Shown in pieces: positions 21,126 through 42,077 of a DNA stretch of 64,000 nt. The translations under genes were made by a program, and so were the position numbers. Numbering within the stretch: position 1 is the first letter of the stretch; each line of letters starts with the position of its first letter. Below the pieces are notes generated by a model. The model was not told where the DNA came from, did not search any database, and saw only the letters and a list, made by a program, of their open reading frames with translations. The stretch comes from Bacteroidales bacterium (GTDB lineage Bacteria > Bacteroidota > Bacteroidia > Bacteroidales > P3): contig JAIRNR010000019.1 of NCBI GenBank assembly GCA_031257915.1, forward strand, positions 1 through 64,000, given 5' to 3'.

Positions 21126-22103
21126 CTAATCCCCACGATAAACTCTCACAAAATCAACATACATTTTCGCGCTGCCGCCCGACAGGGCAGTTACACCGTT
21201 TATATCCCATATTTGCGGGAAGTTGCCTCCTACTGCGAGATTGAACAGGATAAAAAAATCTTTGTGAAAGTAATTACCCGGCGAATTGTCGCCGCTACGG
21301 TCGGATATATTCATTTCATAGTATGGGTCTGCGGAAGGATATTTGTCCCTGTCAAGGTACATCCTTATATAGTTTTCATCCCATATAAGCGTGTATAGAT
21401 GGAACGTATCCTGCAAAGAATAGGAACTTGTGAACGCGTTGGCATAGTTGGGATATGCGCCGCCATTCCACGATAACCCCCAGTGACAGGCACCGTTAAA
21501 ATATCTGTCGGATGTACCCGCCTTTATACCGTTCGCGTGTCCCATTTCAAGAATATCTATTTCGCCGCAGTGGGGCCAGCCGACACTTTCGTAATCATTG
21601 CCCATCATCCAAAAGGCTGGCCATAAGCCATTTGCTGTTCGCGGCAGTTTTATGGATGCTTCTATTCTGCCATGCTCAAATACTTTTTTCCCCTTGCTGT
21701 TTATCCTGCCCGATGTTGCCGTTCTTTCATTATAATTTTCTTTTCTTGCTGTTAAAACAAGGCAGTGACGCCCGCTTTGAGGCTCTGTTTCTACCGACAC
21801 ATTATTCCTGCTGTAATATTGCAGTTCGTTATTGCCGCCTCCATCGCCATTAACTTCTATATTCCAGTACGAAGTGTTAAGAATACTGTCACTGAAATTG
21901 TCTGCCCACGCAAGAGTATAACCTTCATATTGGGGATGTACGGTTATTTCCTCAACAAGTGAAGTGTCGGGAGTTTTGGGGTCGTCCCCGCCCGGATTAT
22001 CATTATTATTGTTGTTATTATTGATACCCTTTTCGCAGCACATTAAAAACGTTATTGCTGCAATAAAGAATAAAACAGTGAAATAAAATCGTCTGTTTGC
22101 CAT
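21126..22103 (-). CDS. GH16 beta-glucanase lipoprotein
   Basis: 325 residues. The N-terminus is a lipoprotein-type signal (hydrophobic run then CC at 22-23), followed by a low-complexity linker with seven Asn and an acidic/Pro stretch. The catalytic motif EIDILE is at 181-186, with E181 as nucleophile, D183 and E186 as acid/base. WPAFWMMG before it and the FNLAVGGNFP and VDFVRVY strands near the end are typical of GH16. Likely action: endo-hydrolysis of beta-1,3 or mixed-linkage beta-glucan at the cell surface. It is the last gene of the PUL, 22 bp after the 1456-aa gene, and also has its own -7 element. Confidence 0.93.
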   Translation of the reverse strand: MANRRFYFTVLFFIAAITFLMCCEKGINNNNNNNDNPGGDDPKTPDTSLVEEITVHPQYEGYTLAWADNFSDSILNTSYWNIEVNGDGGGNNELQYYSRNNVSVETEPQSGRHCLVLTARKENYNERTATSGRINSKGKKVFEHGRIEASIKLPRTANGLWPAFWMMGNDYESVGWPHCGEIDILEMGHANGIKAGTSDRYFNGACHWGLSWNGGAYPNYANAFTSSYSLQDTFHLYTLIWDENYIRMYLDRDKYPSADPYYEMNISDRSGDNSPGNYFHKDFFILFNLAVGGNFPQIWDINGVTALSGGSAKMYVDFVRVYRGD

Positions 22104-22125
22104 AAAATCAGAATTTAAACAATTT

Positions 22126-25100
22126 TCAAATATACGTTTTTAAAACTTTTACGGTCTCATTTTTTTGCCAAATGCCGCGCCCGCTACGCTCAAAAACGAC
22201 AATATAAATCCCCGGCGGTAAAGATGGCAAATTATAGCACTCTTTCCACGCTTTTGAAGTATATACTTTTGTTCCGGTTACGTTATAGAGCGACACGGAG
22301 TTGTATCTTTCCGATGTTTTTACAAAAAGAACTCCATCGGAAATATATGCCGCTGTTTTGTTATTGCCGCCGTTTTGCAGCGGGTCAATAGAATTTGTTT
22401 TCATGATTGCAACAATTTCTACTGTAGTGTCTTGCATAATCGCGGGAAATGTTGTTTCTGCTACTTCATAAACATCTTCATATCCGGCTGCAAAAGCATT
22501 TACTGTTATTTGTGAGCCGTGCACAACGTTTTCAAACACAGCCTTGCCGCCTGTGGTAACAACGCTGTCGTTTAGAATAAAACCTGTGGCAACAACTGTG
22601 AATGCAGGTGAAAGCATTAAAAACATTTTTTCATTTACAACGCGCACTGTTACATTATGTGTTTTTGATATAAGAACACTGTCTAATACAATATCGTCTT
22701 CCGTTGCAAAGAAATTGCTGCCTTCCGTAACACTTACGGATAGCAGATAACGCCCCGCCTCTGTGGGCGGCGAAACATTACCGTTATATTTCACAGTTAT
22801 AATTCCCGCACCTGTATATGGAGTTGCAAGTGTTACCGGAACTTCCGTTGAGCCCTCATCCTGCAATGGAGTCATTAGCGGAAAAGAAAAATGCTCTGCC
22901 GCAAGAACTGCTTTGTTTATTATTATTGTTACAGGCAAAACAAAATTATTCGCGGCATTGTAGTTTAATCCCTGTGCTACGCTTGCGGTAACAGTATATT
23001 CGCCGACATTTATTGCCTGCGCAACGCCGTTATATTTCAGCGTTATATCACCAAGCCCAATCACGCCCGGCGACGGTGCGGCAATAACTGTGTGCGGTTG
23101 CGCGTTATAGGTATAAAAAGTATCTGTCTCAAACGCAATAAGTTCTATTGTCGGTTCGGCACGCAAAATAACAAGCGTGTCTATTACAAGGTTTGATGTA
23201 ACATTAAAACTCTCACCTTCCGAAGCATCTACCGATACGGCATAAATACCGGCATTAACAGGCAGAGATGTATCGCCGTTGTATTTTATAGCGGTAATGC
23301 TACCCGCACCGATAACATCTTCCTTAATGCTAACGCTCGCACTGTGCGGCAAGCCGTCGTAAACAGCAGTGTCGGCACTGTGATAAAACATTCTTTCCGT
23401 CATGCTTCCCCTGACAATGTGCATTGTGCCGATAAAAAGTTCTGTCGTTTTTTGATATTTTAAACCTTCGTTTATGCTCACTGTTATATCGTAAGCACCT
23501 GTTTGTACAGGCAAATCAAGAATACCGTTGTAAAAAACCGTAATGCTGTCGCCGACGCCATCAGGAAAAACGAGTTGCGCAGAATGCGGTTGTCCGTCAA
23601 AGATAACAGTATCCGCAAGCGACACACTGTCGGCAGAAAGAACGCCGAGATTTTTTACTGTAAATTTTTTAATTGTTGAGCCGTATCCTTTTTCGTCCGC
23701 TGCCTGCACCGAAAAGATATATGTGTTATATGGCTGTAACCCCGTTACGGCGTAAATGCTGTTTTGAGAAAGAGTGTGTTGAACAAAAGGCACTCTATCT
23801 TCACTTTCCCAAATACGCACTGCTGCTGCGGGATATGTTCCACTCTGAACAGTAATTTTAACTGTTCCGTCATTAAAAGACTGTCCATTGTAAACAACAT
23901 CTTTTATTTCTGTAAGTACAGGAGGATGCTCATTATGCAGGGAACACGTTTTGCCGACGATATATGTTTGAACCGCATCAATAAAACAGTTATAATGCAC
24001 AGCCCCGTTTTCGTTCGCTGCTTCCCATACGAAAGCGGGATTTGGTCCTATTTTTATGGTATCGTTTTCAAGCAATGCTTCACTGAATGTTAATGTAATT
24101 ATATTTTCATTTTGCTGACGGCTCGTTACTGTTAATCCCACCCTGCTTGTGTTTACTTTTTCTACCTGAATAGAGTTGTTGCTTGCAGACCATCTTGCAA
24201 CAGTATCATAAACAGGATGGAGTTCAAACTGCATTACATTAGCATCGGGATGGCTTATGGAAAGATAGACAGGACATGAACCGAGCCCTTCCGCCTGGAA
24301 GTTAAGAACCTTGTTGCAGTAATCGGAAAATCCGTCCGACACTATATCTATCTCCTTTGCAAACGGCATCCCCCCACCCTGTATGCGGATTTTTCCATCG
24401 GCAGAGGAACCCTCATACCAGCGAACTTCTATAAGAGTTGTCGGCAAAACGCCGCTTGAGAACGGATAAAGAGTATCGGTGCGTGTCGGTTCAACGGAAC
24501 TTTCGCGGGGACGCTGCACCGTTAAACCGTAGGGGGCAGTAACAACTATCGGCTCTGTAAAATTATAACCCGAAACGGTAAATGTTCTAACGCCTGTGTC
24601 GGGCGTAAAGAACAGTCGTTTTGTGCTTACATTTACCGATGAAGCGTTTTCACATGTACTTCCGTAAAGATATGTGCCGTAATTGCCGAAATTTACGGTG
24701 GACCACAACCCGACAGGATTACTGTCGGCATCTAACACCTGCTCGGTATAGTATTCAATGATACCGTTATACACAATGCGGTCGCCGACATGAAGCGTTA
24801 TATTGGGAGTGAGAATTACTTTTGTGTTATTGTCGGAAAGTTGAGAAATAAAAAAGTCGCTGTTATGTTGACCATTCACATATAAATTTTCGGCAAAAAG
24901 TCCGTTTGCACGAAAAAATGTGCCGCTATTGCCCTCTGCATTGCCAATAGTTGCAACGATATTTCCATTTATGGTTTCCCATGAAAAAGCGACACGGTCA
25001 TTGTTGCCATTGCTGTTCGGAAGGGGGTCAAATTCAAAACCGCAGAATGTTGATACACCCGGCTGTACTTCCCTGTACAGGGGGTTCGTATATTCAAAAG

Positions 25101-26496
25101 CGTAACGCGGTGATTCGTCGCTGCTCATATAATCAATGTTATCGCCAATTGAGCGAAGCGTAAGAGTATAATTGTCGGGAACATTAAGCAAAAGCGTGTC
25201 AGTAGTAGAGTTCAGCATTGCTTCGTATTCTTTAAGTTGCGACTGTCCGCGATAGACAACAAGTCTGTAAGAGAGTGCGTTTTCCACTGCTGAAAACGTA
25301 AGAACACCATTGTTTACTGCGATGTTCGACGGCGGCGAAAGCACTTCTGCCTGCGGACAGCGGCTACCCCAAATATATCCGTCAAAATTTATATTCGGAT
25401 ACAGATTTCCGTTGCCTGCGGTAGCGTACTCTACCATTGCGTTATAATGAATCGTATCGCCGTTAAGAAGTGGCACAAGCGGATTATACGTTATTACGGT
25501 ATTACCCTCACTTAATATGCCATTTTCAAACCATGTTCCCCGAAAGCCGTTAACGGTAAAATTTGCCACACCCATTGCGGCACGAAAATTCGTGCCGTCG
25601 GCACCAATTTCTACAGGTGCGATTTTTATTACAAGCTTGCCGTCTAAAGTTTCCCAAGTGAAAAGTGCTTCTGCATCTCCCGCACCTTTTGATGTATTGC
25701 AAAACACCGTTTCGCCGACATTCACCACAGGCGCAGTGCCGTTAATAACCCACAGCACTCTTTCGGATACGGCAGAATTAAGATAGAGCAGAGAATTGGA
25801 AAATGACTGTAACGCAACAGTATAATCACCCGCAAGGGAAAAAAGTACAACATCGCTACTGTTAACATCCTGTATATGGACGGGTAACATTGAGTTGCCG
25901 CGATACACTGTCAGTGTTGTTCTTGCTGCGTTTATATCAGCAGTAAATGTTATTACATTTTCGCCTGTAATGGAAATGTCCGACGGGGTTGCGAGCGGCT
26001 GCGGCTCCGGCGGAACGCAGGTATAACCGAAAGTATGAGTGAAAGAAAGAGTCGGCCAAAGGTCTTGCAGAGCAAACCCTCTTGCGGGCGCATTTGCCGT
26101 CTTGTATTCTACAAGAGCGTTGTAGGTTAATACGTCGCCCTCTGCCAGATTTTGGTTTGGAGTGAAAATAATTTTTGTTTTGCTGTCATTTGTGAATGCA
26201 CCTGCAAAGGTGATATTATCTTTACCTGTAACTTTCAAATTGACTGCATTCATACCCGTACCGCCGCGAAATGCTGTTTCGGTATTGCCGGGAAGTCCTG
26301 TTATTTCCACACTGACGGTGCCATCAGCTTCCGTATTCCATGAAAAAATTGCCGCACTCAAGTCGTCTCCGCTGCAATTATTACCTGATGGCGGCGTTAC
26401 TTTTGTTTGACAAAATTCCGATTCCTGCGCCTGCAATGCACCTGCTGCGGCGAGTATAACTACTGCCGCAAAAATAATAGACAATAAATGTTTCAT
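22126..26496 (-). CDS. Giant T9SS cargo protein with beta-sandwich modules and MBG repeats (1456 aa)
   Basis: Signal peptide at 1-24 (ALQAQ). Residues about 25-620 hold three copies of a ~190-residue module (FRANGLF..NFxVNG, TP.I.L..GD.I.YNG.VEY.T, YPNINFG...WGS.C, then a strand-rich linker with V(T)FxxD.NA..). About 620-940 hold less regular sandwiches and one fibronectin III-like unit. About 949-1280 is a run of four MBG-type repeats (YDG.PHxxxV, GxITxxYNG, P..AGxYxVxVxxxEG.N), the last degenerate. After a short domain the last ~75 residues are a type A sorting domain (VSLYNVTGTKVYT, LPPGIYIVVFE). MBG repeats form extended stalks in adhesins. Its start overlaps the stop of the 1823-aa gene (TAATG), implying coupled translation. 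Confidence 0.85.
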   Translation of the reverse strand: MKHLLSIIFAAVVILAAAGALQAQESEFCQTKVTPPSGNNCSGDDLSAAIFSWNTEADGTVSVEITGLPGNTETAFRGGTGMNAVNLKVTGKDNITFAGAFTNDSKTKIIFTPNQNLAEGDVLTYNALVEYKTANAPARGFALQDLWPTLSFTHTFGYTCVPPEPQPLATPSDISITGENVITFTADINAARTTLTVYRGNSMLPVHIQDVNSSDVVLFSLAGDYTVALQSFSNSLLYLNSAVSERVLWVINGTAPVVNVGETVFCNTSKGAGDAEALFTWETLDGKLVIKIAPVEIGADGTNFRAAMGVANFTVNGFRGTWFENGILSEGNTVITYNPLVPLLNGDTIHYNAMVEYATAGNGNLYPNINFDGYIWGSRCPQAEVLSPPSNIAVNNGVLTFSAVENALSYRLVVYRGQSQLKEYEAMLNSTTDTLLLNVPDNYTLTLRSIGDNIDYMSSDESPRYAFEYTNPLYREVQPGVSTFCGFEFDPLPNSNGNNDRVAFSWETINGNIVATIGNAEGNSGTFFRANGLFAENLYVNGQHNSDFFISQLSDNNTKVILTPNITLHVGDRIVYNGIIEYYTEQVLDADSNPVGLWSTVNFGNYGTYLYGSTCENASSVNVSTKRLFFTPDTGVRTFTVSGYNFTEPIVVTAPYGLTVQRPRESSVEPTRTDTLYPFSSGVLPTTLIEVRWYEGSSADGKIRIQGGGMPFAKEIDIVSDGFSDYCNKVLNFQAEGLGSCPVYLSISHPDANVMQFELHPVYDTVARWSASNNSIQVEKVNTSRVGLTVTSRQQNENIITLTFSEALLENDTIKIGPNPAFVWEAANENGAVHYNCFIDAVQTYIVGKTCSLHNEHPPVLTEIKDVVYNGQSFNDGTVKITVQSGTYPAAAVRIWESEDRVPFVQHTLSQNSIYAVTGLQPYNTYIFSVQAADEKGYGSTIKKFTVKNLGVLSADSVSLADTVIFDGQPHSAQLVFPDGVGDSITVFYNGILDLPVQTGAYDITVSINEGLKYQKTTELFIGTMHIVRGSMTERMFYHSADTAVYDGLPHSASVSIKEDVIGAGSITAIKYNGDTSLPVNAGIYAVSVDASEGESFNVTSNLVIDTLVILRAEPTIELIAFETDTFYTYNAQPHTVIAAPSPGVIGLGDITLKYNGVAQAINVGEYTVTASVAQGLNYNAANNFVLPVTIIINKAVLAAEHFSFPLMTPLQDEGSTEVPVTLATPYTGAGIITVKYNGNVSPPTEAGRYLLSVSVTEGSNFFATEDDIVLDSVLISKTHNVTVRVVNEKMFLMLSPAFTVVATGFILNDSVVTTGGKAVFENVVHGSQITVNAFAAGYEDVYEVAETTFPAIMQDTTVEIVAIMKTNSIDPLQNGGNNKTAAYISDGVLFVKTSERYNSVSLYNVTGTKVYTSKAWKECYNLPSLPPGIYIVVFERSGRGIWQKNETVKVLKTYI
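22127..22134 (-). promoter_or_regulatory. -7 element TATATTTG in front of the GH16 gene
   Basis: The complement reads TATATTTG, matching TAnnTTTG. It overlaps the stop codon of the preceding gene and lies 23 nt before the GH16 start, so GH16 could also be transcribed independently. Confidence 0.4.
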
Positions 26497-29400
26497 TATT
26501 TCATAATTTTTACAGTTTTTATACTACCATTCGCGCCTTTAAGAACAGCAATGTAAAGTCCCCGTGGTAAACGGGATACCGACACCGCCCTGCCTTTTGC
26601 ATGACTTTCAAGCACGTTTACGCCATTAACATTAAACATTTGCAAACTCTCTACCTGCGGAGTTATATACAACATATCTCCACGTATAATATATGCATTA
26701 AGTTCCGTCTTTGCTGCCTGTTCAATACCTACAACCATGTTTGCATATATTTTTAATGTGCCGAGCGCAAGGTTTTCTATGGAAAGGAAATTTTTGCCCT
26801 CTGCCGCATTAAGCGTTACTTCATAAACGTTTGCCTCTGCGGGGGCAGCAATATTGCCGTTATAATATACCGTAAATACACTTGTATCACTGTATGGTGC
26901 CGCAAGTGATACTTCTACCGCGTGGGTATTGCCGTCATATTCAATACTGTCGGGTATGCTGTAAACGAGATAATCTGCAGACAGAACAGCCTTATTTATT
27001 ATGAGTGTACCAAGCAACAGGTCGAGTGTTTCGTCAAACGTTTCTGTTCCCGATATATTTACGGACACTCTGTATTCGCCTGCGTCTATGGGAGTTTCAC
27101 TGCTGCCGTTATAAAGAACTGCAATGTCGCCGACGTCCGGCGTCAAAGATGTCACACTTACACCGTGAGCAAGCCCTGTGTAAACGGTATCCGTAATTTC
27201 AAAAGACAGGTCGGCTGCTGTTACAAGCGGCTTTTCGTTTATGACGAAATTTCCAAGAACAATATCTGTAGCAGAGGCAAGAAAATTTTTACCCTCTGTA
27301 ACGCTTATGCTTATTTGATATGTGTTTGCCGCTGACGGAGGTGTTGTTTCACCATTATATTTTACGGTTATCGTACCTGTACCTGTGTAAGGATTTTTTA
27401 AAGATACTATTACCGTATGCGGATTATTATCAAACTGTATGTTCTTTGGAGTATATTCAAAATGTGAAGATAAAGGTGTTGCCTTGTTGATTGTAAACGT
27501 GCCGACACTGATTGCCGAAATTGCTTCATAATTTGCGCCTTCTGCTACATTTACAGTTACGTGATAAGCACCGGCTGTGTCGGGTGCGTCCGCAACGCCA
27601 TTATAAAAAGTATCGGTAATGGCACCAAGCCCGACAACAGTATGGCTGATAATTATACCTGCCTTTTGCGGAGCGGCGTCATAAACGGTATTCCCCGCTG
27701 CAAGAGAAAATTTATCTGCGGATATTGCTGTCGCCCTGTTAACAATAAGAGTACCGAGAACAAGTTCCGGTATGGCATTGTGATTTATCCCCTCGCTAAT
27801 ACTTACGCTTACAGTATAGTTGCCTGCATTTACCGGTTTTGCAGTGTTGCCGTTATAGAACACACTGTCTATATTTTCAAAACCCGCAATATTGCCAAGC
27901 GGTGTAACTTCAACTTCAAACGGAGTTCCATTGTACACTACTTCCGTTGTGTCGTAAATAAGATCCGTTACCGTTATATCTCTTTTTGCGATAGTAAATG
28001 TTCCCATAATAAGTGTATCGGCAATATAACCCGTTCCCTGCTCCACTGCAATTTTAACCTCATATTCACCTGCATTTATCGGTGCTGTGGTAATGCTGTC
28101 GTTATAGATAACGGTAATAGCACCTGTGCTACTTTGAATGTCAGTATTTGCACGAACATCAACACCATGCGCAGTACCGTCATAAACGGTATCTCTTATA
28201 TCCGCCGTAAAATAACTTTGCTGCAAAACATCTCTTGTTGTCAGTGTTACCGTTGCAATTGCCGAGGGATAACCGAGGGTATCAAGTGCGACAATTTCAA
28301 AATTATAATCAGTCTTAGGTGTAACTCCCTCTATAAGATACATGCTGTCCTCCGCTATGGCAAAGGTTGTGAGCGGTAACAATCCGTTTATTTCACGAAT
28401 GCGGATTGCCTCTAATTCATAAGTGCCGCCGCCGGCTGCGATTTTAAGCACTGTTGAAATTGCTTTGCGATTGACATCAACAACCTCAACTGTTGCTTCT
28501 GTGCGAACTGCCGGTGACGGATATTCGAGCAGACAGCCGCCCTGCCCAACGATGTAGGTCTGTGATGCGTTAACGTATGCGTTACCGTTTGTGCTTCCGT
28601 CCGCCTTTGATGCTGTCCATACCGTTGGACTGCCAAATGTAATTACATTGTTTGCAACAAGAGCCGTGCCGAACGTTGCTGTAATAACAGGACCGTTCGT
28701 GTATTTATTATCAAGTCCCTGCCCGCCGTCAGATGTTATATTTGTAATATTATTCCAGTTAGCAGTATTGCCGTAAACAGGTGAAATCTTAAATTCAAGA
28801 ACAGTTTCACTCTGTTCGGTAATGGTGAGATATACCGGTGCAAGGTCTGTCGCCCCTCCCTGATTTTCAAAATATTTGTTGCAATATTCCGAAAAACGGT
28901 TTGTTCTTACTTTCACGTCTTTTGGAAACGCAAGTCCGCCGCCGGCTATTTGAACAAAACCGTTAGACGAACCTTCAGCCCATTCAACGTAAATATCTAC
29001 CGGATGAACAACGCCGTTTGTGTCGGGAATAAGGGTTTGCGGATATACCGACAGTCCTCTGGAAGCAGTAACGGTAAGTGGTGAGGTAAGTTTTTCCGCC
29101 GACAGGACGAATGTTTGAATACCTGTATCGGGACTGAATGTCAGTACATGTTTATCCGTTTCAACTTCGGGATAATAATCGCAGGTTGTTCCGTATGTGA
29201 AATAGCCGAACCGTGTGGCGAAATTTACGGTAGGCCAAAGTCCGAGCGGTGCTTGTCTTTCGTCCACCGCGAGTGCTGTCCGATATTCAAGATAGCCGTT
29301 ATAACTTATCTGGTCGCCGGGATTTATTGTTACGGTTGGGGTAAGTGTTACGGTTTTCATATCGGGACTCATCTGTATGGTAAAATAAGTTCCAGTTATT

Positions 29401-32046: not shown

Positions 32047-33336
32047 TTACTTTGGGGGAATATCAACTATTTCTTCTTCAACTATGGTATTCCCTTTTCT
32101 TAACACATACTTTATGCTTTGTCCGGGAATTGTTTCGCCGCAAATTTGCAAGTGTATTTTATAATCTACATCGGCAGGATTATACGACAGATTATATAAA
32201 ATGCCGTTAATACGTGTAAGATTTTGAGGGCAAGTTATATCATGAACACTTATTATTGTCTCGCCTGCAAGAATATTTTGCAGAGGAATTTCTAAGGCTG
32301 TTTCATCACCAACAGCAGTGTCATACACTTTTACCCCTATTGTAGTGTTTTTAGAGGCAGTCACTTTTGTTATTAGAGAGTATTTTTTTCCGGGTATGAG
32401 GATAGCAGGTCTTTTTGAAAACACCCTGAACTGTGACTGCCAGTTCTCAGAAGTTTGATTGCCAAGATAAATATTTACGACAGTGTCATCTTTTATTGTA
32501 AATGTATAGTTACTGCTTGGATTCCAACCGGGTGCATAAAACACTGTGTACGGCGAAAGTTTTCTGCCTTTCATTATATCGTTACACACAAATACTTCAC
32601 CGGAAATTGCTACTTTTTCCGCACTGCCTGCATTGCCGCTAAAATCTACCGGAATTATTGTAAACTCGTAATCGGTACCATCAGTTAATGCTATGCTAAC
32701 AGTATCGTCAAAGAAAATTTCTTCATAATTATTTGCCGCATCTGCAACATAATAGAACCAGTTGCCCGATGCCTCTGTCGCAGGCATTGCGATAGTAACA
32801 GATGTTAGTGTTTTGTCGACAATATTCGGCTTTTCAGTAAAAACAGGGGCTGTAGCATCCTCATTGTCTTTGCTGTTTGGCAATGTTTTGTCATAAGAAA
32901 CAAACGCTGTTGAACGATATGTCCACGCGCCTGTTGTCGTTGGATATACAAAAACATTTATCTGTACAGAATTTTCCGTCGGCGTATTTGCAAACGAGCC
33001 ATAACTTATATTATTACCTGTACGTCCCGCTATGTTACCGGGTTTTGTAAGTGCTCCTGTGGATTGTTTATACATAATTTGTGAAGCCCACCCTTCACCA
33101 CTTATATTGCTGCCATTAAGTTTTGTCCAAACCCAAGTTTTTGTACCAACCGTTACGATTTTATAGTCGGTTGTAATTGTTCCATCCGCACCACTTTCAA
33201 TATTTGCGGTGTCATTTGCTGTTGGATACAAAACGGCATTATTTTCAACTATAGACCCCACCTGTGAAAAATCAGGTATTTGTGAATATCCTGCAAGCAT
33301 TGCAGAAACCAAAACTGTAAATAAAAATTTTTTCAT
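32047..33336 (-). CDS. PUL secreted protein, CBM4/9-like domain, no sorting signal (429 aa)
   Basis: Signal peptide, then the shared head domain (about 40-160: TDYKIVTVGTKTWVWTKLNG, GEGWASQIMY, GNNISYGSF), an Fn3-like unit (ATAPVF, DYEFTIIPVDFSGNAG) and a jelly-roll domain at about 255-405 (VCNDIMKGRKL, APGWNPSSNYTF, NWQSQFRVF) resembling CBM4/9-type carbohydrate-binding modules. It is closely similar to the 507-aa neighbour across these three domains but stops at residue 429 with no T9SS tail. It would reach the periplasm by Sec and not be exported further, unless another signal exists. It follows a strong terminator hairpin, so its expression may differ from the upstream PUL genes. Confidence 0.75.
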   Translation of the reverse strand: MKKFLFTVLVSAMLAGYSQIPDFSQVGSIVENNAVLYPTANDTANIESGADGTITTDYKIVTVGTKTWVWTKLNGSNISGEGWASQIMYKQSTGALTKPGNIAGRTGNNISYGSFANTPTENSVQINVFVYPTTTGAWTYRSTAFVSYDKTLPNSKDNEDATAPVFTEKPNIVDKTLTSVTIAMPATEASGNWFYYVADAANNYEEIFFDDTVSIALTDGTDYEFTIIPVDFSGNAGSAEKVAISGEVFVCNDIMKGRKLSPYTVFYAPGWNPSSNYTFTIKDDTVVNIYLGNQTSENWQSQFRVFSKRPAILIPGKKYSLITKVTASKNTTIGVKVYDTAVGDETALEIPLQNILAGETIISVHDITCPQNLTRINGILYNLSYNPADVDYKIHLQICGETIPGQSIKYVLRKGNTIVEEEIVDIPPK

Positions 33337-33350: not shown

Positions 33351-33370
33351 TTACATAAAGTTATATGTAA
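33351..33370. promoter_or_regulatory. 20-bp palindrome upstream of the 429-aa gene
   Basis: TTACATA and TATGTAA form a perfect 7-bp inverted repeat around 6 nt, 14 bp before the start codon. It may be an operator or a 5' hairpin; no matching regulator is in the locus. Confidence 0.35.
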
Positions 33371-33428
33371 CTCACAATTGAAAACCGCGTCCGCTTTTTA
33401 CATGTTCGTTTCATATCTTTCGTTTATA

Positions 33429-33469
33429 CTAAAAACGGCAACACAGAAAGGACGTTCTGTATCGCCGTT
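33429..33469 (-). terminator. Strong rho-independent terminator-like hairpin inside the PUL
   Basis: On the minus strand, 15 base pairs (including G-U pairs) form between AACGGCGATACAGAA and TTCTGTGTTGCCGTT, with a loop of about 6 nt, followed by a short T-run. It lies directly after the 507-aa gene and before the 429-aa gene. It should end or strongly reduce transcription from the SusC side. Confidence 0.75.
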
Positions 33470-33483
33470 TAACTATTATAAAA

Positions 33484-35007
33484 TTATCGTCCCGCTACAA
33501 CCTGCTTAAACTGTTTCTGTACGCCGGCGGCATCTGTAACTTTAATAATGTACAGACCGCTTGCGAGAGAACTCATATCCACCGTATTTCCGTTTTGTTT
33601 TACCGAAATTTTATGTCCGCCGGCGGAAAATACATCAACTCGCTTTATTGCGTTTTCGGATATAACAGTAAGTGTTCTGCCTTGCATATATACAGCCATT
33701 GAACTGTTGTCTGCTTTCTTAAAATCTCTTACGGCAACAGGCGGCACAGTTTCACCGCCGCAAATTTGCACAGAAATAAGATAGTCAATATCGGCGGGAT
33801 TCCACGATAAGTTAAAAAGAAATCCGTTTATCTTTGTTAATCCTCCCGGACAAACTACGTCATAAACGGCAATCTTGTTATCTCCGGCTGTAATGTCTCG
33901 CTGGGTAATTTCCATTGCAACGCCATCACCACCGGCAGTATCATACATTTTTAAGTGGAATGGAGCGTTTTTGGAAATATTTACATTTGCTATTAAAGAA
34001 TATGTTTCGCCGGGTGTAAGAAGAACAGGACTTGTAGTAAATGCTCTGAGTTGTGCTTGCCAATTGTCGGATGTAGCGTCTCCGAGGTGTATGCTTGCAA
34101 CTGTGTCATCTTCTATCACAAATGTATAGTTGCTGCTTGGAGTCCAGCCGGGTGCATAATAAATTTCGCCGACAACAAGTGTTTTTCCTGCCATAAGATT
34201 ATTGCACACAAACATTTCGCCCGAAACGATTACTTTTTCGGAATCACCTGTATTGCCGCTGAAATCAACAGGAGTTATAATAAATTCATAGTCCGTACCT
34301 TCTGCAAGTGTAATACTTACAGTATCTGTAAAAAACACTTCATAATAACCGTTTGCCGTATCTGTAACATAATAAAACATATCGCCGGATTCATCCGAAG
34401 CAGACAGTTTCAATGTTAAATTAGTTGCTGTCTTGTTCATCTCTTCCGCAAAGGAAGCCCAAACAGGTGCGGTAACATCGTTTACATTTTTACTGTTTTG
34501 TTCATTGACATTATACAATAATCCGACAGATGCCGTAGCACCGTATTGCCATGAACCGAAGTTTGTTAAATATCCGAATAAACTCAGATTGGTTGGATTG
34601 GTTCCGGGCATTTCCGATGCTGTCATTTTTCCGTATGCAACAGTATTGCCTGTACGCTGCGTTAGATTATAATGTCCCGAATTTCCATTAACATCAAGAG
34701 TGGTGTCTGCTTTTCTGTAAAAAACCTGTGCCGCCCACTCTTCGCCCGAAAGATTTGCATTTGCACCGTTAAACTTTACATACGCCCACGTTAGAGAATT
34801 GATTGTTACTATTTTGTAATCGGCTGTATATCCCTCACGTAGAACAGAATGATCTGCTCCTCCCGCATCGCCTTTCCATCCTCCGTACAATTGCAATCCG
34901 GTTCCTTTCATAGAGCCGTGATTAAAGGCTGCGTTTGCCTGACTTGCAAGACTCATGAAAAATATTGCTGCGAAAAAGCAACATACTGTAAATAAATTTT
35001 TTTTCAT
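33484..35007 (-). CDS. PUL secreted protein, CBM4/9-like domain with T9SS type A tail (507 aa)
   Basis: Signal peptide (cleavage near ASQANA), head domain (ADYKIVTINSLTWAYVKFNG, GEEWAAQVFY), Fn3-like unit (VDFSGNTG), then a jelly-roll domain at about 270-415 with APGWTPSSNYTFVIEDD and NWQAQLRAF, resembling CBM4/9 modules. The last ~80 residues are a type A sorting domain (IKRVDVFSAGGHKISV, MSSLASGLYIIKVTD). The product is predicted to sit on the cell surface and bind the target glycan or aid the GH128 and GH16 enzymes. It is 29 bp downstream of the GH128-like gene and is followed by the terminator hairpin. Binding specificity is inferred from PUL context only. Confidence 0.8.
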   Translation of the reverse strand: MKKNLFTVCCFFAAIFFMSLASQANAAFNHGSMKGTGLQLYGGWKGDAGGADHSVLREGYTADYKIVTINSLTWAYVKFNGANANLSGEEWAAQVFYRKADTTLDVNGNSGHYNLTQRTGNTVAYGKMTASEMPGTNPTNLSLFGYLTNFGSWQYGATASVGLLYNVNEQNSKNVNDVTAPVWASFAEEMNKTATNLTLKLSASDESGDMFYYVTDTANGYYEVFFTDTVSITLAEGTDYEFIITPVDFSGNTGDSEKVIVSGEMFVCNNLMAGKTLVVGEIYYAPGWTPSSNYTFVIEDDTVASIHLGDATSDNWQAQLRAFTTSPVLLTPGETYSLIANVNISKNAPFHLKMYDTAGGDGVAMEITQRDITAGDNKIAVYDVVCPGGLTKINGFLFNLSWNPADIDYLISVQICGGETVPPVAVRDFKKADNSSMAVYMQGRTLTVISENAIKRVDVFSAGGHKISVKQNGNTVDMSSLASGLYIIKVTDAAGVQKQFKQVVAGR

Positions 35008-35036
35008 ATACTTTATTTTTTATTGTTAATAATCCT

Positions 35037-36347
35037 TTACACTCCCTCACGTTTGTAACGCCACCAATTAAGGGAAATCATGCCTTTGCTCGGCACAATA
35101 CGAATTGTATGCTTGCCGGATGTAAGCGGCAGAGTTGGCGTTGTGACGGTCTCCCATTTAGTATAGCCGCCTGTTTTCGGCAATTCTATTTCACCTGCTT
35201 CGTTACCGTCTAAAAGAATTTTGCATTTGGAATCGCCGTTTGCGGCATAGCGGACTATAAAATGATAGTCGCCGCTTACAGACGGTTCAATTTGATATTC
35301 CAACCATTTCGGAAGTCCGAATTCCGTAACTTCCAAAATACCTGTTTCGTCGGAAGAAATCTTCAACTGAACACTTGTCACCCACTTATCGTGTGCCGCC
35401 TCGCTCATATTTGTATTGCAGTAGTGTTCTGCCGGTATAACCTGATTATGTCCGTAGTGATATTCTTTATCGTAAGACGACATATTCACATAAATCTTGC
35501 CCAAATCGGACAGCGCACCCTGAGAATTACCTGTGGGGCGAAGTGCGTACTGCGGATTTGCAGTCGTACTGCCGTCATATTTAAACCACGCATAACGTTC
35601 TATCATTGGTTCGCTTTCAAGGTAATTTATGATGTTGCTCATATATGCCCGTTGCTGTTCGGATGTGCGTGTGCCTTCCCATGCGCAAAATTCGGTGAGC
35701 CATATCGGTTTTCCGTATTTGCGAAATCTTTCCATAAAACTTTTTACTGCCCCCGGCTCATTCATATAGCAATGCAAAGCAAGTGCGCTTACATCATCTA
35801 TTGAAACACCGTTTTGTGCAAAAAATTCATCATACCATTTTACAGGGTCGCTGTATCCTGCGAGAGTACCGTAGTTCATGGCAGGAGCAACAATTTTCAT
35901 GTTCAATTCCTGTGCAAGTTGCTTTATCGGCAACCATTTTTCCGCCGCCTGCGCAGGGGTCATATTTGCCTGATCGGTAAGATTCGGCTCGTTAAAAGCA
36001 AGGATATACTCACATTCCGGATACTTGTTTTTCAAATTACGGATGGCGGTAGCCCAATCGCCACCGCCATTCCATATCATTGGGAAAAATGCAACATCAG
36101 CATTTTTTGCAGCACTTTCAACAGTGCTGTTATATCCGCTTGCGCCCCAGTTATACGTCCAGCTTACACCCTTTTTTATCGCGTCAAAGTCGGCAGTATA
36201 TATGTTGTTAAAGCTAATTCCGCGCTTTTCGCTACGCGCCTGTTTTATGCTGTATTTATTGGAGTCTGCATAAACCGTATCCTTCGGTTTCTGACAGAAA
36301 CAGCATAACAATGCAAGAAGCACTATTGATAAATATCGAATATTCAT
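35037..36347 (-). CDS. GH128-like endo-beta-1,3-glucanase lipoprotein with C-terminal CBM6-like domain
   Basis: 436 residues. A lipoprotein-type leader with cysteines at 15, 16 and 18 starts the protein. Residues about 42-300 match the Asl1-like glycosyl hydrolase catalytic family (GH128): KRGISFN, VSWTYNWGA, FFPMIWNG, AFNEPN with E120 as likely acid/base, and WLTEFCAWEG with E219 as likely nucleophile. Residues about 318-436 form a beta-sandwich like CBM6 (GDYHFIVRYAANG, KCKILLDG, GKHTIRIV, SLNWWR). GH128 members characterised so far cleave beta-1,3-glucan, which agrees with the GH16 gene in the same locus. It lies between the surface lipoprotein gene and the CBM-like genes. Confidence 0.82.
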   Translation of the reverse strand: MNIRYLSIVLLALLCCFCQKPKDTVYADSNKYSIKQARSEKRGISFNNIYTADFDAIKKGVSWTYNWGASGYNSTVESAAKNADVAFFPMIWNGGGDWATAIRNLKNKYPECEYILAFNEPNLTDQANMTPAQAAEKWLPIKQLAQELNMKIVAPAMNYGTLAGYSDPVKWYDEFFAQNGVSIDDVSALALHCYMNEPGAVKSFMERFRKYGKPIWLTEFCAWEGTRTSEQQRAYMSNIINYLESEPMIERYAWFKYDGSTTANPQYALRPTGNSQGALSDLGKIYVNMSSYDKEYHYGHNQVIPAEHYCNTNMSEAAHDKWVTSVQLKISSDETGILEVTEFGLPKWLEYQIEPSVSGDYHFIVRYAANGDSKCKILLDGNEAGEIELPKTGGYTKWETVTTPTLPLTSGKHTIRIVPSKGMISLNWWRYKREGV

Positions 36348-36365
36348 ACGATTATTTTATAGTGC

Positions 36366-37172
36366 TTACTTTTTATAGAAAAAGAGAGCGTCAAGATTAA
36401 GTTCTGTTCCCGGAATAAAGGGTAAGCCTTCAAAGGCAGGTGCTAAATACCCGAGAATATATTTCCTGTCCTCTCCTGCACTCGGCGGACCTTCCAATGT
36501 AAGAGGTCCCGTCCAAAGATAACCCTGATTTATAAGTTCCGATATGGGAATTTCAAAATGCTGCCACTCGCCGTTATGAGCGTAGTTATTGTCTGTTCCC
36601 GCACCAAAATCAAAATATGCTTCGCTACCCTCGCTGTAAAAAAAGAATCTCCATGCTGCCTGTTCTTGATTTGAAGGGGATTTAACTGCGAAATGGAAAT
36701 AGTACTCGCCATCCATAAGCGGCGAAAGGTCGGGAGCGGTTTCAAACTGACTCAGAATGGATATTATTGCACCGCCTGCCCATCCTTCGTTAGTCGTTCT
36801 AAAGGCGGTATATGCCTCGGGCTGTCCCCACGCATTAACACCTGTAGGGGTAACGCCTTCAAGTGTTTCGCCGGCATTCCATACATCATAGTCGCGTAGC
36901 ATTGTCGGCTGTTTAACTTTATTGCCAAGTTGTGCCGTGCTTACCGGATCCATAAAAATAATGTAGAAGTCGCTACCGTTAAGAATACTGTCCGGCAGTG
37001 AAACTTCAGGATCATCAGGATCATCAGGATCGTCAGGATCATCGGGATCATTCGGATCGTCAGGGTCAATAACTTCTTTATTTTTGTCGTCACATCCGGT
37101 AACAGATACTGCAACAAACGAAATTGCTCCCAGCATAAGAAGCAGCCAGAAAATTGATTTCAATGTCTTCAT
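36366..37172 (-). CDS. PUL surface lipoprotein (SusE/F-position glycan-binding protein)
   Basis: 268 residues. Lipobox ends at Cys27 (SVTGCDD). An acidic linker of repeated Asp-Pro-Asp units follows (about 38-57) and then one beta-sandwich domain of about 200 residues (DFYIIFMDPVSTAQLG, GEYYFHFAVKSPS, WQHFEIPISEL, LNLDALFFYKK). Being directly after SusD, it occupies the position of SusE/SusF-type surface glycan-binding proteins. The domain looks like the jelly-roll fold of carbohydrate-binding modules; ligand is inferred to be the beta-glucan of the PUL. The linker DNA is a short tandem repeat and may vary in length. Confidence 0.75.
   Translation of the reverse strand: MKTLKSIFWLLLMLGAISFVAVSVTGCDDKNKEVIDPDDPNDPDDPDDPDDPDDPEVSLPDSILNGSDFYIIFMDPVSTAQLGNKVKQPTMLRDYDVWNAGETLEGVTPTGVNAWGQPEAYTAFRTTNEGWAGGAIISILSQFETAPDLSPLMDGEYYFHFAVKSPSNQEQAAWRFFFYSEGSEAYFDFGAGTDNNYAHNGEWQHFEIPISELINQGYLWTGPLTLEGPPSAGEDRKYILGYLAPAFEGLPFIPGTELNLDALFFYKK
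37006..37070. repeat. 9-bp imperfect tandem repeat encoding the Asp/Pro linker
   Basis: Variants of tcaggatca recur about seven times with 9-bp spacing. Gain or loss of units would keep the frame and change the distance between lipid anchor and binding domain. Confidence 0.7.
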
Positions 37173-37227
37173 AATTTTATGATTTTAGTTGTTAATTGAT
37201 TTTTATCTTTTCGGTTTAATATGCTAA

Positions 37228-38850
37228 TTATTTAAATCTGTTGTTCTGTTCAAGTCCGGAAAGGTCAAGTTCGTACTGCGGCAACGGGAAATATTCGTTT
37301 TTACCTTTGACAAATGTTCCCATTTCCGCCTGCACTGCTGCCGTTTCATTCTGTTTATAATCATCCATAACCTGCTTCGCTATGCCCCAGCGCACAATAT
37401 CAAACCAGCGATGTCCTTCCATAGCAAGTTCTACTCTGCGCTCATGGCGCAGGGCAAGCCGCATATCATTCTGATTGCTGCCGTATGAGCCATAAGGAAA
37501 ATCGGGTAACTGCGTTGCAGGATTTGCACATTCACTCCTGCGCACGGAACGCAGATAATTCAGCGTTGCCGTGGCACCTGCAATATCGCCAAGTTCGTTA
37601 CACGCTTCCGCATACATTAGCAGAACATCAGCATAACGAATAAGTTTTATATTTATCGGCGAACGTGTCTCGTGTCCGTTCCAAAGGGCGTTGTTATTAT
37701 CGTCCATAAGTGCGTACTTTCGTGACAGATAACGGCAACCAAGATATATTTCCTCATTAGTATTGCTCATCATGGAGTCGGGCAAATTGAGTATTGACGC
37801 ATCTCTGCGTATATCGCCATCTTCAAACTCATTGTACAAACTCTGCGTAGGCTTGTTAAAGCCCCAGCCTTTGGCAGCACCGCCGCTTGCCAGCTTTGGC
37901 ATTTTTGTAGAGCGCGAGCGTGTCAAAACAGTTGTAAACGTTCCTCTTGTGCCGCCGAAATGCGGATTGAAAGAACCGTAATCACTGCTTGCTTCCTCGC
38001 TGTACTGTGCTTCAAACACACTTTCTATACCGTTTTCGTTATAGATACTGAAATTGTCGGAATAGCGCGGCTCTAAACCGTACTGTCCGCTGTTTATTAT
38101 AGAGTCGCCCCATTGCTTTGCCTGCGCATACTGCCCCTGATAGAGATATGCTTTTAAAAGAAGTGCCTGCGCCGCGCCCTTTGTTGCACGACCAATTTCG
38201 GACGGATTAGCACGTATTTGCGACAGGGTCCAGAGTTTGCTGTTTGCGTCCAGTAAATCGGCAACTATCCGTTCATATATCTTTTCTGCCGTTGCCTTTG
38301 GCTGCTTCCATTCGGAGGATGATTTTATAGTTACTGTTACTAATGGCAACTCCTGAAATATTCTTACGAGGCGAAAATAGTAAAACGCACGTAAAAATTT
38401 TGCCTCACCGATAAGACGCTGCTTTACACTTTCGGTCATTATGGAGTCGGGAGCAATAAGCGGTATTTGTTCTATTGCGAGATTGCAGCGTGCAACGCCC
38501 TGATAGTTCATTTGATACATATCAAGAAGAATAGCGTTATTGTCGGACACTCTGAAATTGTCAAGTTCAAATCCGGCAGACATATCGCTAACATTTTGTC
38601 CGCCTTTAAGCGCGTCGTCGGACGCCACATCACCAATCCACCATTCGCTGCTGTATGTTGAGCCGTACTCCCATTGCACAGGTACGTATGCGCCGTTTAC
38701 CACCTGAATGGCTGCCGCACCTCCGCTTGCAAAGAACTCTTCCAGACCCGGACGTGCCGGCTGCGGCTCGCTTAACCATTTATTGCATCCCGAAAATGCA
38801 ATTAAACAAGCCAAAACTCCGATAGTATAAAAATATCTTTTCATTTTCAT
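37228..38850 (-). CDS. susD: SusD/RagB family starch-binding-type outer membrane lipoprotein
   Basis: 540 residues. Lipobox at Cys22 (IAFSGCNKW). The N-terminal half has the TPR-like helices of the family (RCNLAIEQIPLI, IGEAKFLRAFYYFRLVRIF, LLKAYLYQGQYAQAKQW). The C-terminal part has IRYADVLLMYAEACNELG, LRHERRVELAMEGHRWFDIVRWG and the closing YFPLPQYELDLS. SusD proteins cap the SusC channel and hand over oligosaccharides. It lies 6 bp downstream of the SusC gene, so translation is probably coupled. The substrate is inferred as beta-1,3-glucan from the hydrolases downstream. The symbol denotes the family, not the starch gene itself. Confidence 0.96.
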   Translation of the reverse strand: MKMKRYFYTIGVLACLIAFSGCNKWLSEPQPARPGLEEFFASGGAAAIQVVNGAYVPVQWEYGSTYSSEWWIGDVASDDALKGGQNVSDMSAGFELDNFRVSDNNAILLDMYQMNYQGVARCNLAIEQIPLIAPDSIMTESVKQRLIGEAKFLRAFYYFRLVRIFQELPLVTVTIKSSSEWKQPKATAEKIYERIVADLLDANSKLWTLSQIRANPSEIGRATKGAAQALLLKAYLYQGQYAQAKQWGDSIINSGQYGLEPRYSDNFSIYNENGIESVFEAQYSEEASSDYGSFNPHFGGTRGTFTTVLTRSRSTKMPKLASGGAAKGWGFNKPTQSLYNEFEDGDIRRDASILNLPDSMMSNTNEEIYLGCRYLSRKYALMDDNNNALWNGHETRSPINIKLIRYADVLLMYAEACNELGDIAGATATLNYLRSVRRSECANPATQLPDFPYGSYGSNQNDMRLALRHERRVELAMEGHRWFDIVRWGIAKQVMDDYKQNETAAVQAEMGTFVKGKNEYFPLPQYELDLSGLEQNNRFK

Positions 38851-38856
38851 CTTTCA

Positions 38857-41800
38857 TTAAAATTCAAGATTGACGCCAAACAAAACCGTTCTCGCTTGCG
38901 GATAGTTGCCATAGTCAACACCACTGCCGACCTCAGGGTCGTAACCGCTGTATTTTGTCAATGTAAGAAGGTTGCTTGCCGCGACATATACCCTAAACTT
39001 GTCTATATATAATTTCCGCGTTATCTTTTGCGGCAAAGTATAACCAAGTTGCAAGTTTTTCAGACGCAGGTAAGCACCACTTTCCAAAAATCTGCTTGAA
39101 GGGTAGAAATTAACAGCATTGCGCGGATTTGGTATTGAACCGTCTGTGTTTGACGGCGTCCAGGCATCGCGCATTGCGGTACTCATTACCGTTTTATTGC
39201 CAGGACCTTCCAAATCTTCGCGCTGTGCATTATAAAGTTTATTACCATAAATTCCCTGAAAAAAGAATGTAAAATCAAAACCGAAATATTCAAACGATGC
39301 GTTAATACCGTAAGTGAGCCATGGAAACGGATTGCCGAGCTCCATACGGTCGTCATCGTTTATTTTACCGTCATTGTTACGGTCAAAATATTTTGCGTCC
39401 CCTGCCCGATATGTTCCTGCAACGGTATTATATAAATGCTCGTTTGCTTCCTTATCTGTCCTGTATATACCGAGATATTCATATCCGTAATAAGTATAAA
39501 GCCCAAGCCCTACATCGCTTATAACGCGGTCGCCATAAACAGGATAACCGCCATTAAGAGCAGCAAGTTCGTTTTTTATAAAACTTATATTTCCGCTAAC
39601 GGAATAACTGAATTTACCTTTTCTTTCCTGCCATAAAAGCGACATTTCAATACCGTCATTCCTGACAGTACCTACGTTCGCTTTCGGACTGAAAAGATTG
39701 CCTGTATATGCAGGTGCCGACACAAACAGAAACATCTCTTTTGTTGTTCTCCTGAAAAGGTCCACTGTTCCCGAAAGGCGGTTTTGCAAAATACCCCAGT
39801 CAACGGCAACATTCCACTGCTCCGTAACTTCCCACTTGCCGTCTTCATTAACCCATGTGTTTATTGACGCGCCCTGTGCCGCGCTTTGTCCGTCATTAAC
39901 AAAACCATTTGGTTGTATATATGCGCCGCCCTGTCCGAGAATATATGACGAAAAATACATGCCTGAATTTATGCCCTGCAAAAAGTCGCCCGAACCGACG
40001 CTGCTCTGGTTGCCGAGTTGTCCCCATCCGAAACGGAGTTTAAGTTCGTCAAGACCTGTCAGGTTCTGCATAAATTTTTCCTCACTTATACGCCAGCCGA
40101 TTGCTGTTGACGGGAAATATCCCCAGCGGTGCTGTGGAAACTTGCTTGAACCGTCTGCTCGAAAATTAACTGTTATCAAATAACGGTTATCATACGCATA
40201 ATGTAATCTGCCGAGAAATGAAATCATACGCGATCTGTCAACACCATCACCCGCAGGATTTGTATTATTCTCCGTGGTTTGCGACAGGTACCAGTTTTCG
40301 GGCTTGGGAACGAGAATTGTTGATCCCGAATTGCCGAGATTGTAGTAGTTATATTCCTCAGCAGTATGTCCCGCCATAACGGAAAAATTGTGGTTTCCTA
40401 TATTTTTAGCGTATGTTATTATATTTTGATTTGTGAGTGTATAATAGCGCGACAGGGAACTTGACAGAAAATTTTCAGTGCGCCCGTCATAGGCGGAAAA
40501 TTCGTATGCATCGCCGAATGAACGATTCCGAAGCAACGAAAAATCCAAACTTACCGAAGAACGTATTGACAGACCATCTATCGGAGTAAGGTTTAGATAA
40601 ACATCACCTACAACGCGGTCGGTATAGTCCATAGGGTGATTCATTTCTACCGTTGAAAACGGATTTGTAACGTCCTTGAAGTTTGACGCAGCAGACGGTC
40701 GTCCGCTAATATCCTCGCCCTGATTGTTTACCGAGCCTTCGGGGTAGTGGGTCGGGTCCCACGGTGCCATGGCAAGGGCTGCTGTGAGTACAGACGCACC
40801 TGCACTGCCGCTGTTATTCGGTGCGTTGCGATAGGTAGAAGTCATATAGGTCATGTTTTCACCCACCGTAAGCCACTTTCTTATTTTATAGGATGTATTT
40901 GCACGAACCGTAAGACGTTTATAATACGAGCCGATAATTGTACCTTGCTGGTCGTAATAGCCTGCGCTTAAAGCGTACTGCTTCGTTTCATCACCGCCCT
41001 CAAATGACAAGTTATAATTTTGAATTGCAGCATTACTTACAAACACTTCGTCCTGCCAGTCGGTTTCCTGTTTTGAGTAATCAAAATTTGTCGGATAATA
41101 AGGACTGCTACCTAGCCGGAGTTTAATCCATTTGTTAAATCCTTTTCCGTTATTAAACAGTGCTGTTTCTGATGGCACGTCGGCAAGCATTACAAGAGTT
41201 TTTGCAAACTCATCCCTTTGCATAACATCAAGTTTTTTCCATCTGTTTTGAACACCTGCATAAACATCAACGGAAATTTTTCCCTTTTGCTGTTTCCCCT
41301 GTTTTGTTGTTATAATTACAACGCCGTTTGCACCGCGAGAACCGTAGATTGCAGCCGCCGAAGCATCTTTAAGAATTTCGCTGCTTTCTATATCGTTAGC
41401 GTTTATAAAAGAAATATCACTCACTATAATGCCATCTACGACATATACGGGATCGCTGTTGTTAAGTGTGCCTATACCGCGAATACGCACCGTTGCAGCG
41501 GAACCTGGCTGCCCCGAATTGGAATTTACGGTAACGCCGGCAACGCGTCCCTGCAACGCCTGCGTTAGGTTTGCACTTGGCGATCTTTTAAGAGCATCGC
41601 CCTTAATAGAAGCAACAGCACCTGTAACATCGCTTTTTTTCATTGTGCCGTATCCGACAACAACAACTTCGTCCATTATTCTTGCATCCTGCACCATAGA
41701 AACGTTTATTGTGCCGCCTCCGTCAACAGGTCTTTCAACGGACCCCATCCCTATAAACGAAAAAACAAGTACCCCATTTGAAGATACTTGTATTTTATAG

Positions 41801-42006
41801 TTTCCGTCAGCGTCGGTTGTAGTTCCTACTGCAGTGCCTTTAATAAAGACATTAGCACCGGCTACAGGTTCACCTGTTTTATCAGTTACGGTACCCTGAA
41901 CATTTACTTGTGTTATATTTTGTGAATACAACACCGAAACATTCAAAGTACAAAACAGCATCACAAAGGTAAAAATCACTTTTGTCTCACGTCGTTTAGT
42001 CCGCAT
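38857..42006 (-). CDS. susC: SusC/RagA family TonB-dependent outer membrane transporter
   Basis: 1049 residues from the ATG at 42004-42006 (a longer frame begins 22 codons upstream but would precede the signal peptide). After the signal peptide (cleavage near LYSQN) comes the carboxypeptidase-regulatory-like domain (VQGTVTDKTGEPVAGANVFI), the linker DEVVVVGYGTMKKSDVTGA, the plug (about 120-230, IRGIGTLNNSDPVYVVDGI, IYGSRGANGVVIITTK) and a ~22-strand barrel ending in the aromatic LFGVNLEF. It imports oligosaccharides energised by TonB. It is the first gene of the locus, with a -7 element 64 nt upstream. No SusR, hybrid two-component or ECF regulator gene is seen nearby. Confidence 0.97.
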   Translation of the reverse strand: MRTKRRETKVIFTFVMLFCTLNVSVLYSQNITQVNVQGTVTDKTGEPVAGANVFIKGTAVGTTTDADGNYKIQVSSNGVLVFSFIGMGSVERPVDGGGTINVSMVQDARIMDEVVVVGYGTMKKSDVTGAVASIKGDALKRSPSANLTQALQGRVAGVTVNSNSGQPGSAATVRIRGIGTLNNSDPVYVVDGIIVSDISFINANDIESSEILKDASAAAIYGSRGANGVVIITTKQGKQQKGKISVDVYAGVQNRWKKLDVMQRDEFAKTLVMLADVPSETALFNNGKGFNKWIKLRLGSSPYYPTNFDYSKQETDWQDEVFVSNAAIQNYNLSFEGGDETKQYALSAGYYDQQGTIIGSYYKRLTVRANTSYKIRKWLTVGENMTYMTSTYRNAPNNSGSAGASVLTAALAMAPWDPTHYPEGSVNNQGEDISGRPSAASNFKDVTNPFSTVEMNHPMDYTDRVVGDVYLNLTPIDGLSIRSSVSLDFSLLRNRSFGDAYEFSAYDGRTENFLSSSLSRYYTLTNQNIITYAKNIGNHNFSVMAGHTAEEYNYYNLGNSGSTILVPKPENWYLSQTTENNTNPAGDGVDRSRMISFLGRLHYAYDNRYLITVNFRADGSSKFPQHRWGYFPSTAIGWRISEEKFMQNLTGLDELKLRFGWGQLGNQSSVGSGDFLQGINSGMYFSSYILGQGGAYIQPNGFVNDGQSAAQGASINTWVNEDGKWEVTEQWNVAVDWGILQNRLSGTVDLFRRTTKEMFLFVSAPAYTGNLFSPKANVGTVRNDGIEMSLLWQERKGKFSYSVSGNISFIKNELAALNGGYPVYGDRVISDVGLGLYTYYGYEYLGIYRTDKEANEHLYNTVAGTYRAGDAKYFDRNNDGKINDDDRMELGNPFPWLTYGINASFEYFGFDFTFFFQGIYGNKLYNAQREDLEGPGNKTVMSTAMRDAWTPSNTDGSIPNPRNAVNFYPSSRFLESGAYLRLKNLQLGYTLPQKITRKLYIDKFRVYVAASNLLTLTKYSGYDPEVGSGVDYGNYPQARTVLFGVNLEF

Positions 42007-42069
42007 AATTGGCTGTTTATTAAATGAATGAGTATATTTTTGGTTAAATTTGCCCAAAAAATGAAAAGT

Positions 42070-42077
42070 CAAATGTA
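42070..42077 (-). promoter_or_regulatory. -7 element TACATTTG for the PUL operon
   Basis: The complement matches TAnnTTTG, giving a leader of about 60 nt before the SusC start. No TTG at the -33 distance, which would fit an activator-dependent promoter. Confidence 0.45.

Follow-up and report, generated by a model that had tools for sequence, protein, structure and literature searches.

The window analysed here is a 64,000-nucleotide stretch of a Bacteroidales bacterium (GTDB lineage Bacteroidales; P3), positions 1 to 64,000 of contig JAIRNR010000019.1 in assembly GCA_031257915.1. Nine open reading frames (ORFs) on its minus strand, between 21126 and 42072, form a polysaccharide utilisation locus (PUL) of the Sus type, in which adjacent genes for SusC and SusD are accompanied by co-directional genes for glycoside hydrolases of families GH128 and GH16. 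Two giant proteins encoded within this locus, of 1823 aa (giant B) and 1456 aa (giant A), are built largely from a repeated module that we call CX and carry tails for the type IX secretion system (T9SS); they are the subject of this study.

Gene content of the beta-1,3-glucan locus

A preliminary description of this DNA, made from the sequence alone, had reported nine same-strand genes from SusC to GH16 with small gaps, and this arrangement holds, with gaps of 6, 55, 18, 29, 147, 79, -1 and 22 bp in that direction, none exceeding 147 bp. The proposal that the GH16 and GH128 enzymes mark a beta-1,3-glucan PUL is likewise borne out: SusC, SusD, the GH128 enzyme (PF11790) with its CBM6/35 domains and the GH16 beta-glucanase (PF00722) all exceed their family cut-offs, and the catalytic motifs are intact, namely NEPN and TEF in GH128 and ExDxxE, present as EIDILE at residue 181, in GH16. 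In the Protein Data Bank (PDB), the nearest solved structures are 'Glyco_hydro_cc' entries for GH128, and the GH16 entries 5nbo and 7kr6 plus laminarinases for GH16. The ORF call for SusC begins at a TTG codon (42072); the true start is probably an ATG at ~42007.

Two proteins between the GH128 enzyme and the giants resemble the surface glycan-binding protein (SGBP) SGBP-B. The first, of 507 aa (33484-35007), is homologous in its C-terminal domain to BtSGBP-B of Bacteroides (PDB 7kwb), and the second (32047-33336) is its paralogue, located 79 bp from giant B. Pfam and NCBIfam scans found no sorting domain in this paralogue, which has either lost its T9SS tail or never had one. A further candidate glycan-binding protein is the 268-aa lipoprotein encoded next to SusD, which has no Pfam match over cut-off and contains a linker of the form (DDP)n.

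By reading of the N-termini, lipobox-type signals are present on SusD, the 268-aa protein, GH128 and GH16, and none was found on the two SGBP-B-like proteins or on either giant; the enzymes and the binders therefore appear to be exported by two routes, as lipoproteins and through T9SS. The genes of giants B and A overlap by TAATG, as noted in the preliminary description, which had read this as translational coupling. The overlap is present, but a second species of the genus has a 378-bp gap in its place, and we have dropped the overlap as a sign of fixed stoichiometry. The intergenic gaps ahead of the giants contain no terminator-like site.

Architecture of the giant proteins and the CX module

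Giant B begins with an N-module and fibronectin type III (FN3) domain of the SGBP-B type, continues with another FN3 domain and the series CX-FN3, CX-FN3, CX-Ig and CX-FN3, and ends in six MBG repeats and a T9SS tail. Giant A opens directly on CX-FN3, CX-FN3, CX-Ig and CX-FN3, followed by four MBG repeats, a short extra domain and a T9SS tail. Eleven domains thus precede the MBG array in giant B and eight in giant A. The reported MBG arrays of six and four agree with the matches to MBG_3 (PF18887). The account of three to four modules of ~190 aa was right about the repetition and needed revising in number and size: each giant contains four CX modules of ~130 aa, three of them close copies and the fourth divergent, linked to the others by profile-profile comparison (hhalign), and each is followed by a domain of ~95 aa, giving a unit of ~225 aa. 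The linker domain is Ig-like after CX3 and FN3 elsewhere, the latter identified by predicted structure (Z 11 to FN3). The N-module and adjoining FN3 domain of giant B share homology with the N-terminal halves of both SGBP-B-like proteins, and in sequence terms this sharing looks like a sign of domain exchange within the PUL.

Both giants have signal peptides (by reading) and C-terminal sorting domains, and their genome encodes T9SS, with SprA found at 2426 bits. Scanned protein by protein, their tails score weakly, but they exceed the cut-off when the whole genome is scanned, in agreement with the earlier description of two T9SS proteins of these sizes; in an NCBIfam scan of the giants the tails were the sole named matches. 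The genome holds 73 sorting domains, the two of the giants and 71 others, many of them in frames of more than 1000 aa. One orphan sorting domain (18954-19160, plus strand, E 2e-8) lies in a 97-aa frame near the far end of the cluster and may be all that remains of a T9SS gene since lost. On another contig of the same genome (C91; locus L009, 1-4008, plus strand), a GDSL-lipase-type T9SS protein carries MBG repeats of its own; the MBG array seems to be a general stalk in this genus.

No Pfam family accounts for CX in scans of the giants; among 16 CX modules taken singly, no family matched three or more members, and the matches were all unconvincing. A CX profile had no match at E<=1 among PDB sequences, and a PHROGs search returned no match. 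An AlphaFold2 model of module A3 (pLDDT 87.7, pTM 0.82) shows an Ig-like beta sandwich. With this model alone, Foldseek found no PDB chain at E<=0.001, and the best alignment by VIA-align (Z 6.8, to the N-domain of DsbD, 99 aligned, 3.0 A) does not rise above background; with CX-FN3 as query, FN3-type domains alone filled the list through the linker. We considered CBM39 and rejected it as a family assignment: PF15886 matches giant A in a single stretch, at E 0.013, and none of the 16 modules scanned singly. No CBM39 structure is among the fold matches listed for the CX beta sandwich. CX is thus a previously unnamed module of ~130 aa with a predicted beta-sandwich structure, for which we do not claim a new fold, and it is a candidate new carbohydrate-binding module (CBM). 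All six matches to the CX profile in the genome fall within the two giants.

Table 1 Genes of the locus and parts of the giant proteins, in window coordinates.
Feature	Position	Strand	Evidence and remarks
SusC-type TonB-dependent transporter	38857-42072	-	TIGR04056, 914.8 bits
SusD-type lipoprotein	37228-38850	-	PF07980, PF14322; PDB SusD homologues
Lipoprotein, 268 aa, Asp/Pro-rich linker	36366-37172	-	No Pfam family; kept in all three PULs
GH128-type enzyme with CBM6/35	35037-36347	-	PF11790 E 3e-49, PF18099, PF03422; PDB GH128-type chains
SGBP-B-like protein: N-module, FN3-like, C-terminal CBM-like domain, T9SS tail	33484-35007	-	phmmer 7kwb E 5.8e-10; TIGR04183 over cut-off
SGBP-B-like paralogue without T9SS tail	32047-33336	-	45% identity over 438 aa
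Giant B	26496-31967	-	Between 32047-33336 gene and giant A
N-module + FN3, giant B	31254-31898	-	BLASTP E 2e-21 to 507-aa protein
CX module B1	30588-30947	-	HMM match
CX module B2	29871-30266	-	HMM match
CX module B3	29178-29591	-	HMM match
CX module B4, divergent	28530-28895	-	hhalign, CX vs CX4 profiles, E 5e-9
Six-MBG array, giant B	26742-28217	-	PF18887, six stretches
T9SS type A sorting domain, giant B	26499-26741	-	TIGR04183, 28.8 bits, genome scan
Giant A	22126-26496	-	Between giant B and GH16
CX module A1	26014-26424	-	HMM match
CX module A2	25354-25713	-	HMM match; FN3 linker down to 25057; AlphaFold2 model of CX-FN3, pLDDT 85
CX module A3	24649-25056	-	HMM match; AlphaFold2 model
CX module A4, divergent	23941-24330	-	hhalign
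Four-MBG array, giant A	22663-23640	-	PF18887, four stretches
T9SS sorting domain, giant A	22129-22386	-	TIGR04183, 23 bits with neighbours, cut-off 23
GH16 beta-glucanase, lipoprotein-type signal	21126-22103	-	PF00722

Conservation and distribution

The sole other genome of the genus compared, from a second species (G001; metagenome-assembled genome Kf353_bin105, JAISPZ010000080.1), contains the same locus in the order SusC, SusD, lipoprotein, GH128, giant B, giant A, GH16, GH16. The termite Kalotermes flavicollis is the source of the Kf353 samples (PMC11707648, stated there for bin77), and the bacterium of the window probably lives in a termite gut. Identities between the two species are 77% for SusC, 72% for SusD, 57% for the 268-aa lipoprotein, 76% for GH128, 52-57% for the giants and 72-75% for GH16. 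No SGBP-B-like gene lies within this sister PUL (the search covered this locus alone). Giant B of the sister species has eight MBG repeats by reading, against six in the window, the last pair being a duplication, and the number of CX modules remains four. In a tree of CX modules, A1/D1, A2/D2, A3/D3 and B2/C2 pair across the two species, and CX1 of a third genome, G179, falls together with slot 1 of giant A (support 80/89); on this phylogenetic pattern, these paired slots are evidently old.

G179 belongs to another family, and its PUL is fuller: it encodes SusC, SusD, a relative of the 268-aa protein (28% identity over 192 aa, E 5e-9), two GH128 enzymes, GH16, GH2, a CX protein, an SGBP-B matching BtSGBP-B at E 1e-21, GH3 and GH81. 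The CX protein, of 796 aa, lies between GH16/GH2 and SGBP-B/GH3/GH81; it has a T9SS tail and no MBG repeats. Because it occurs in this PUL of another family, the CX protein is, judging from these comparisons, a component of beta-1,3-glucan PULs that predates the genus; the MBG stalk, on the simplest reading, seems to have been acquired within the genus. The assignment of the giants to the PUL thus gains support from a second species and from a second family. A fourth and distant CX protein occurs in G279, again from another family; it has 1556 aa and InlB-like and FN3 domains (L041, 7147-11817, plus strand), and it lies near a GH28-like gene. CX was found in 2 of 190 genomes of the family and 3 of 393 of the order, the genome of the window being counted in both; repeated samples of the phylum gave none outside the order. 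Homologues lying mostly outside PULs would have argued against the assignment, but three of the four CX-bearing genomes have CX in a beta-1,3-glucan PUL.

Upstream of SusC in the window, between 42100 and 43350, intact genes are absent, and the fragments present there resemble an AAA-ATPase/nuclease-type gene. In the sister species, this side of SusC carries a DUF4143-type ATPase relative and, by reading, a regulator-like gene; the PUL of G179 has a large sensor-like gene, also by reading. Elsewhere in the window, a single ORF of 1407 aa (8530-12753, plus strand) fuses glycogen synthase (PF05693) with a DUF3417/glycogen phosphorylase part, joining synthesis and breakdown in one chain, and a 24-bp tandem repeat is present in six copies at 56896-57038.

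Proposed role of the giant proteins in glucan use

The closest characterised counterparts of this locus are the beta-1,3-glucan utilisation loci (1,3GULs) of Bacteroides (Dejean et al. 2020, PMC7157763), with which it shares a SusC/D pair, a homologue of BtSGBP-B, a protein that binds laminarin and yeast beta-glucan (PMC7157763), and a GH16 beta-glucanase. Of the 1,3GUL core set of TonB-dependent transporter, SGBP-A, SGBP-B and GH3, the first three are present and GH3 is absent from the window cluster, although the G179 PUL has it. In contrast to the Bacteroides loci, the cluster has GH128 instead of GH3/GH158, an SGBP-B-like protein on a T9SS rather than a lipid anchor, and the two CX/MBG giants in addition. 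Like BtSGBP-B, the giants are multi-domain, all-beta proteins predicted to bind glycans at the surface, but they are three to four times longer, their CX modules are unrelated to it by sequence, and they end in an MBG stalk and a T9SS tail. The locus functions like a PUL with SGBPs but is not a standard 1,3GUL, and the giants, having no lipobox, are not SGBP-B proteins, which are surface lipoproteins. Another SGBP-B-like protein of the outer membrane serves an insoluble glucan, cellulose, and is encoded in a PUL-type cluster; that protein, unlike the giants, has two modules and no stalk, and its cluster has no SusD. With the fibrillar adhesin-like proteins of Bacteroidetes (PMC8286594), the giants share tandem stalk repeats, a Por_Secre_tail anchor and heads placed away from it, but they are encoded inside a glucan PUL and contain no known adhesive domain.

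Taken together, these data lead us to conclude that the giants are probably T9SS-displayed, multivalent surface glycan-binding proteins of a beta-1,3-glucan PUL, with CX modules that bind glucan and MBG repeats that serve as a stalk. The layout, with CX towards the N-terminus and MBG beside the C-terminal T9SS tail, is consistent with a stalk presenting binding heads. T9SS cargo proteins are known to have this tail removed and to become anchored at the cell surface by their C-terminus. The giants would be fixed in the same way and, since such tails are usually exchanged for a C-terminal anchor, the MBG array would lie next to the membrane as a stalk that lifts an outward-pointing string of CX modules, with a reach that domain counts roughly suggest to be some tens of nanometres. 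Each CX module would bind beta-1,3-glucan with low affinity and the string together with high avidity, keeping the glucan beside the uptake machinery. GH128 and GH16, as lipoprotein-type enzymes, would then cut the held chain, and SusC/D would import the pieces. A glucan is the best-supported ligand because the GH16, GH128, GH81 and GH3 enzymes of these PULs and their SGBP-B homologues point to it; the glucan may be soluble, callose, or from fungal or flagellate walls.

Several observations weigh against this conclusion. CX is rare, occurring in four genomes among the samples searched, and in G279 it lies outside any PUL or SusCD locus in the 19 kb read. The enzymes have changed more slowly than the giants between the two species, and CX is not clearly better conserved than the MBG/FN3 parts (51-79% vs 44-69%). 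CX also has no consistent likeness, by sequence or fold, to any known CBM. The MBG array recurs on the GDSL-family protein, which is unrelated to the giants. This recurrence, together with the G279 protein and the fibrillar-adhesin layout of distal modules, repeat stalk and C-terminal anchor (PMC8286594), would suit adhesins that fix the cell to the gut wall, a flagellate or fungal cell wall, or a wood particle, with glucan binding serving attachment and the PUL reflecting regulation or a shared niche. We think this rather unlikely, as the place of the giants inside the PUL is kept in two species, the third PUL contains a stalkless CX protein, and giant B bears the N-module of the SGBP-B-like proteins of its own PUL. 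The earlier picture of an adhesin-like stalk as a part of the PUL is upheld for the CX/MBG/T9SS layout, but not as a general feature, given the absence of MBG from the CX protein of the third PUL and its presence on the GDSL protein.

The CX modules might instead be structural spacers or protein-docking sites, for example in a scaffold that gathers enzymes, leaving the SGBP-B-like proteins and CBM6/35 alone to hold the glycan. The Ig-like sandwich of CX, with weak matches to non-glycan domains alone, would allow this, and there is a precedent in BuGH16, whose two PF13004 beta-sandwich domains bound no glycans and have been interpreted as spacers (PMC7157763). Yet with no SGBP-B-like gene in the sister PUL, the giants would be its main binders other than SusD, and conservation specific to the slot, reaching 79% for A1/D1 and higher than in the MBG repeats and linkers, suggests that a surface is constrained; we consider spacers or docking sites improbable. 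This genome encodes many large T9SS proteins, and repeat-rich genes of this kind could have entered the operon by chance as passengers with no role in glucan use. Synteny in two species leads us to reject this as very improbable, and the presence of CX beside beta-1,3-glucan enzymes in a genome of another family also speaks against it.

The favoured explanation, that the giants are surface glycan-binding proteins, places the binding part of this beta-1,3-glucan PUL in long, multivalent, T9SS-displayed proteins, while the enzymes and SusD are apparently lipid-anchored. Sus-type uptake has been characterised mainly with soluble or semi-soluble glycans and with binders close to the membrane, and curdlan supported growth of none of the three Bacteroides 1,3GUL species tested (PMC7157763). 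More tentatively, and with considerable doubt, we propose that CX founds a new CBM family for insoluble beta-1,3-glucan, such as callose or the fungal or flagellate wall, and that stalks of four to eight MBG repeats carry the four-module strings well past the SusCD layer, enabling the harvest of particulate glucan. If so, a Sus-type system would harvest particulate glucan, unlike the characterised Bacteroides 1,3GULs with curdlan. CX itself is a clear and expressible CBM candidate whose genomic context predicts its ligand.

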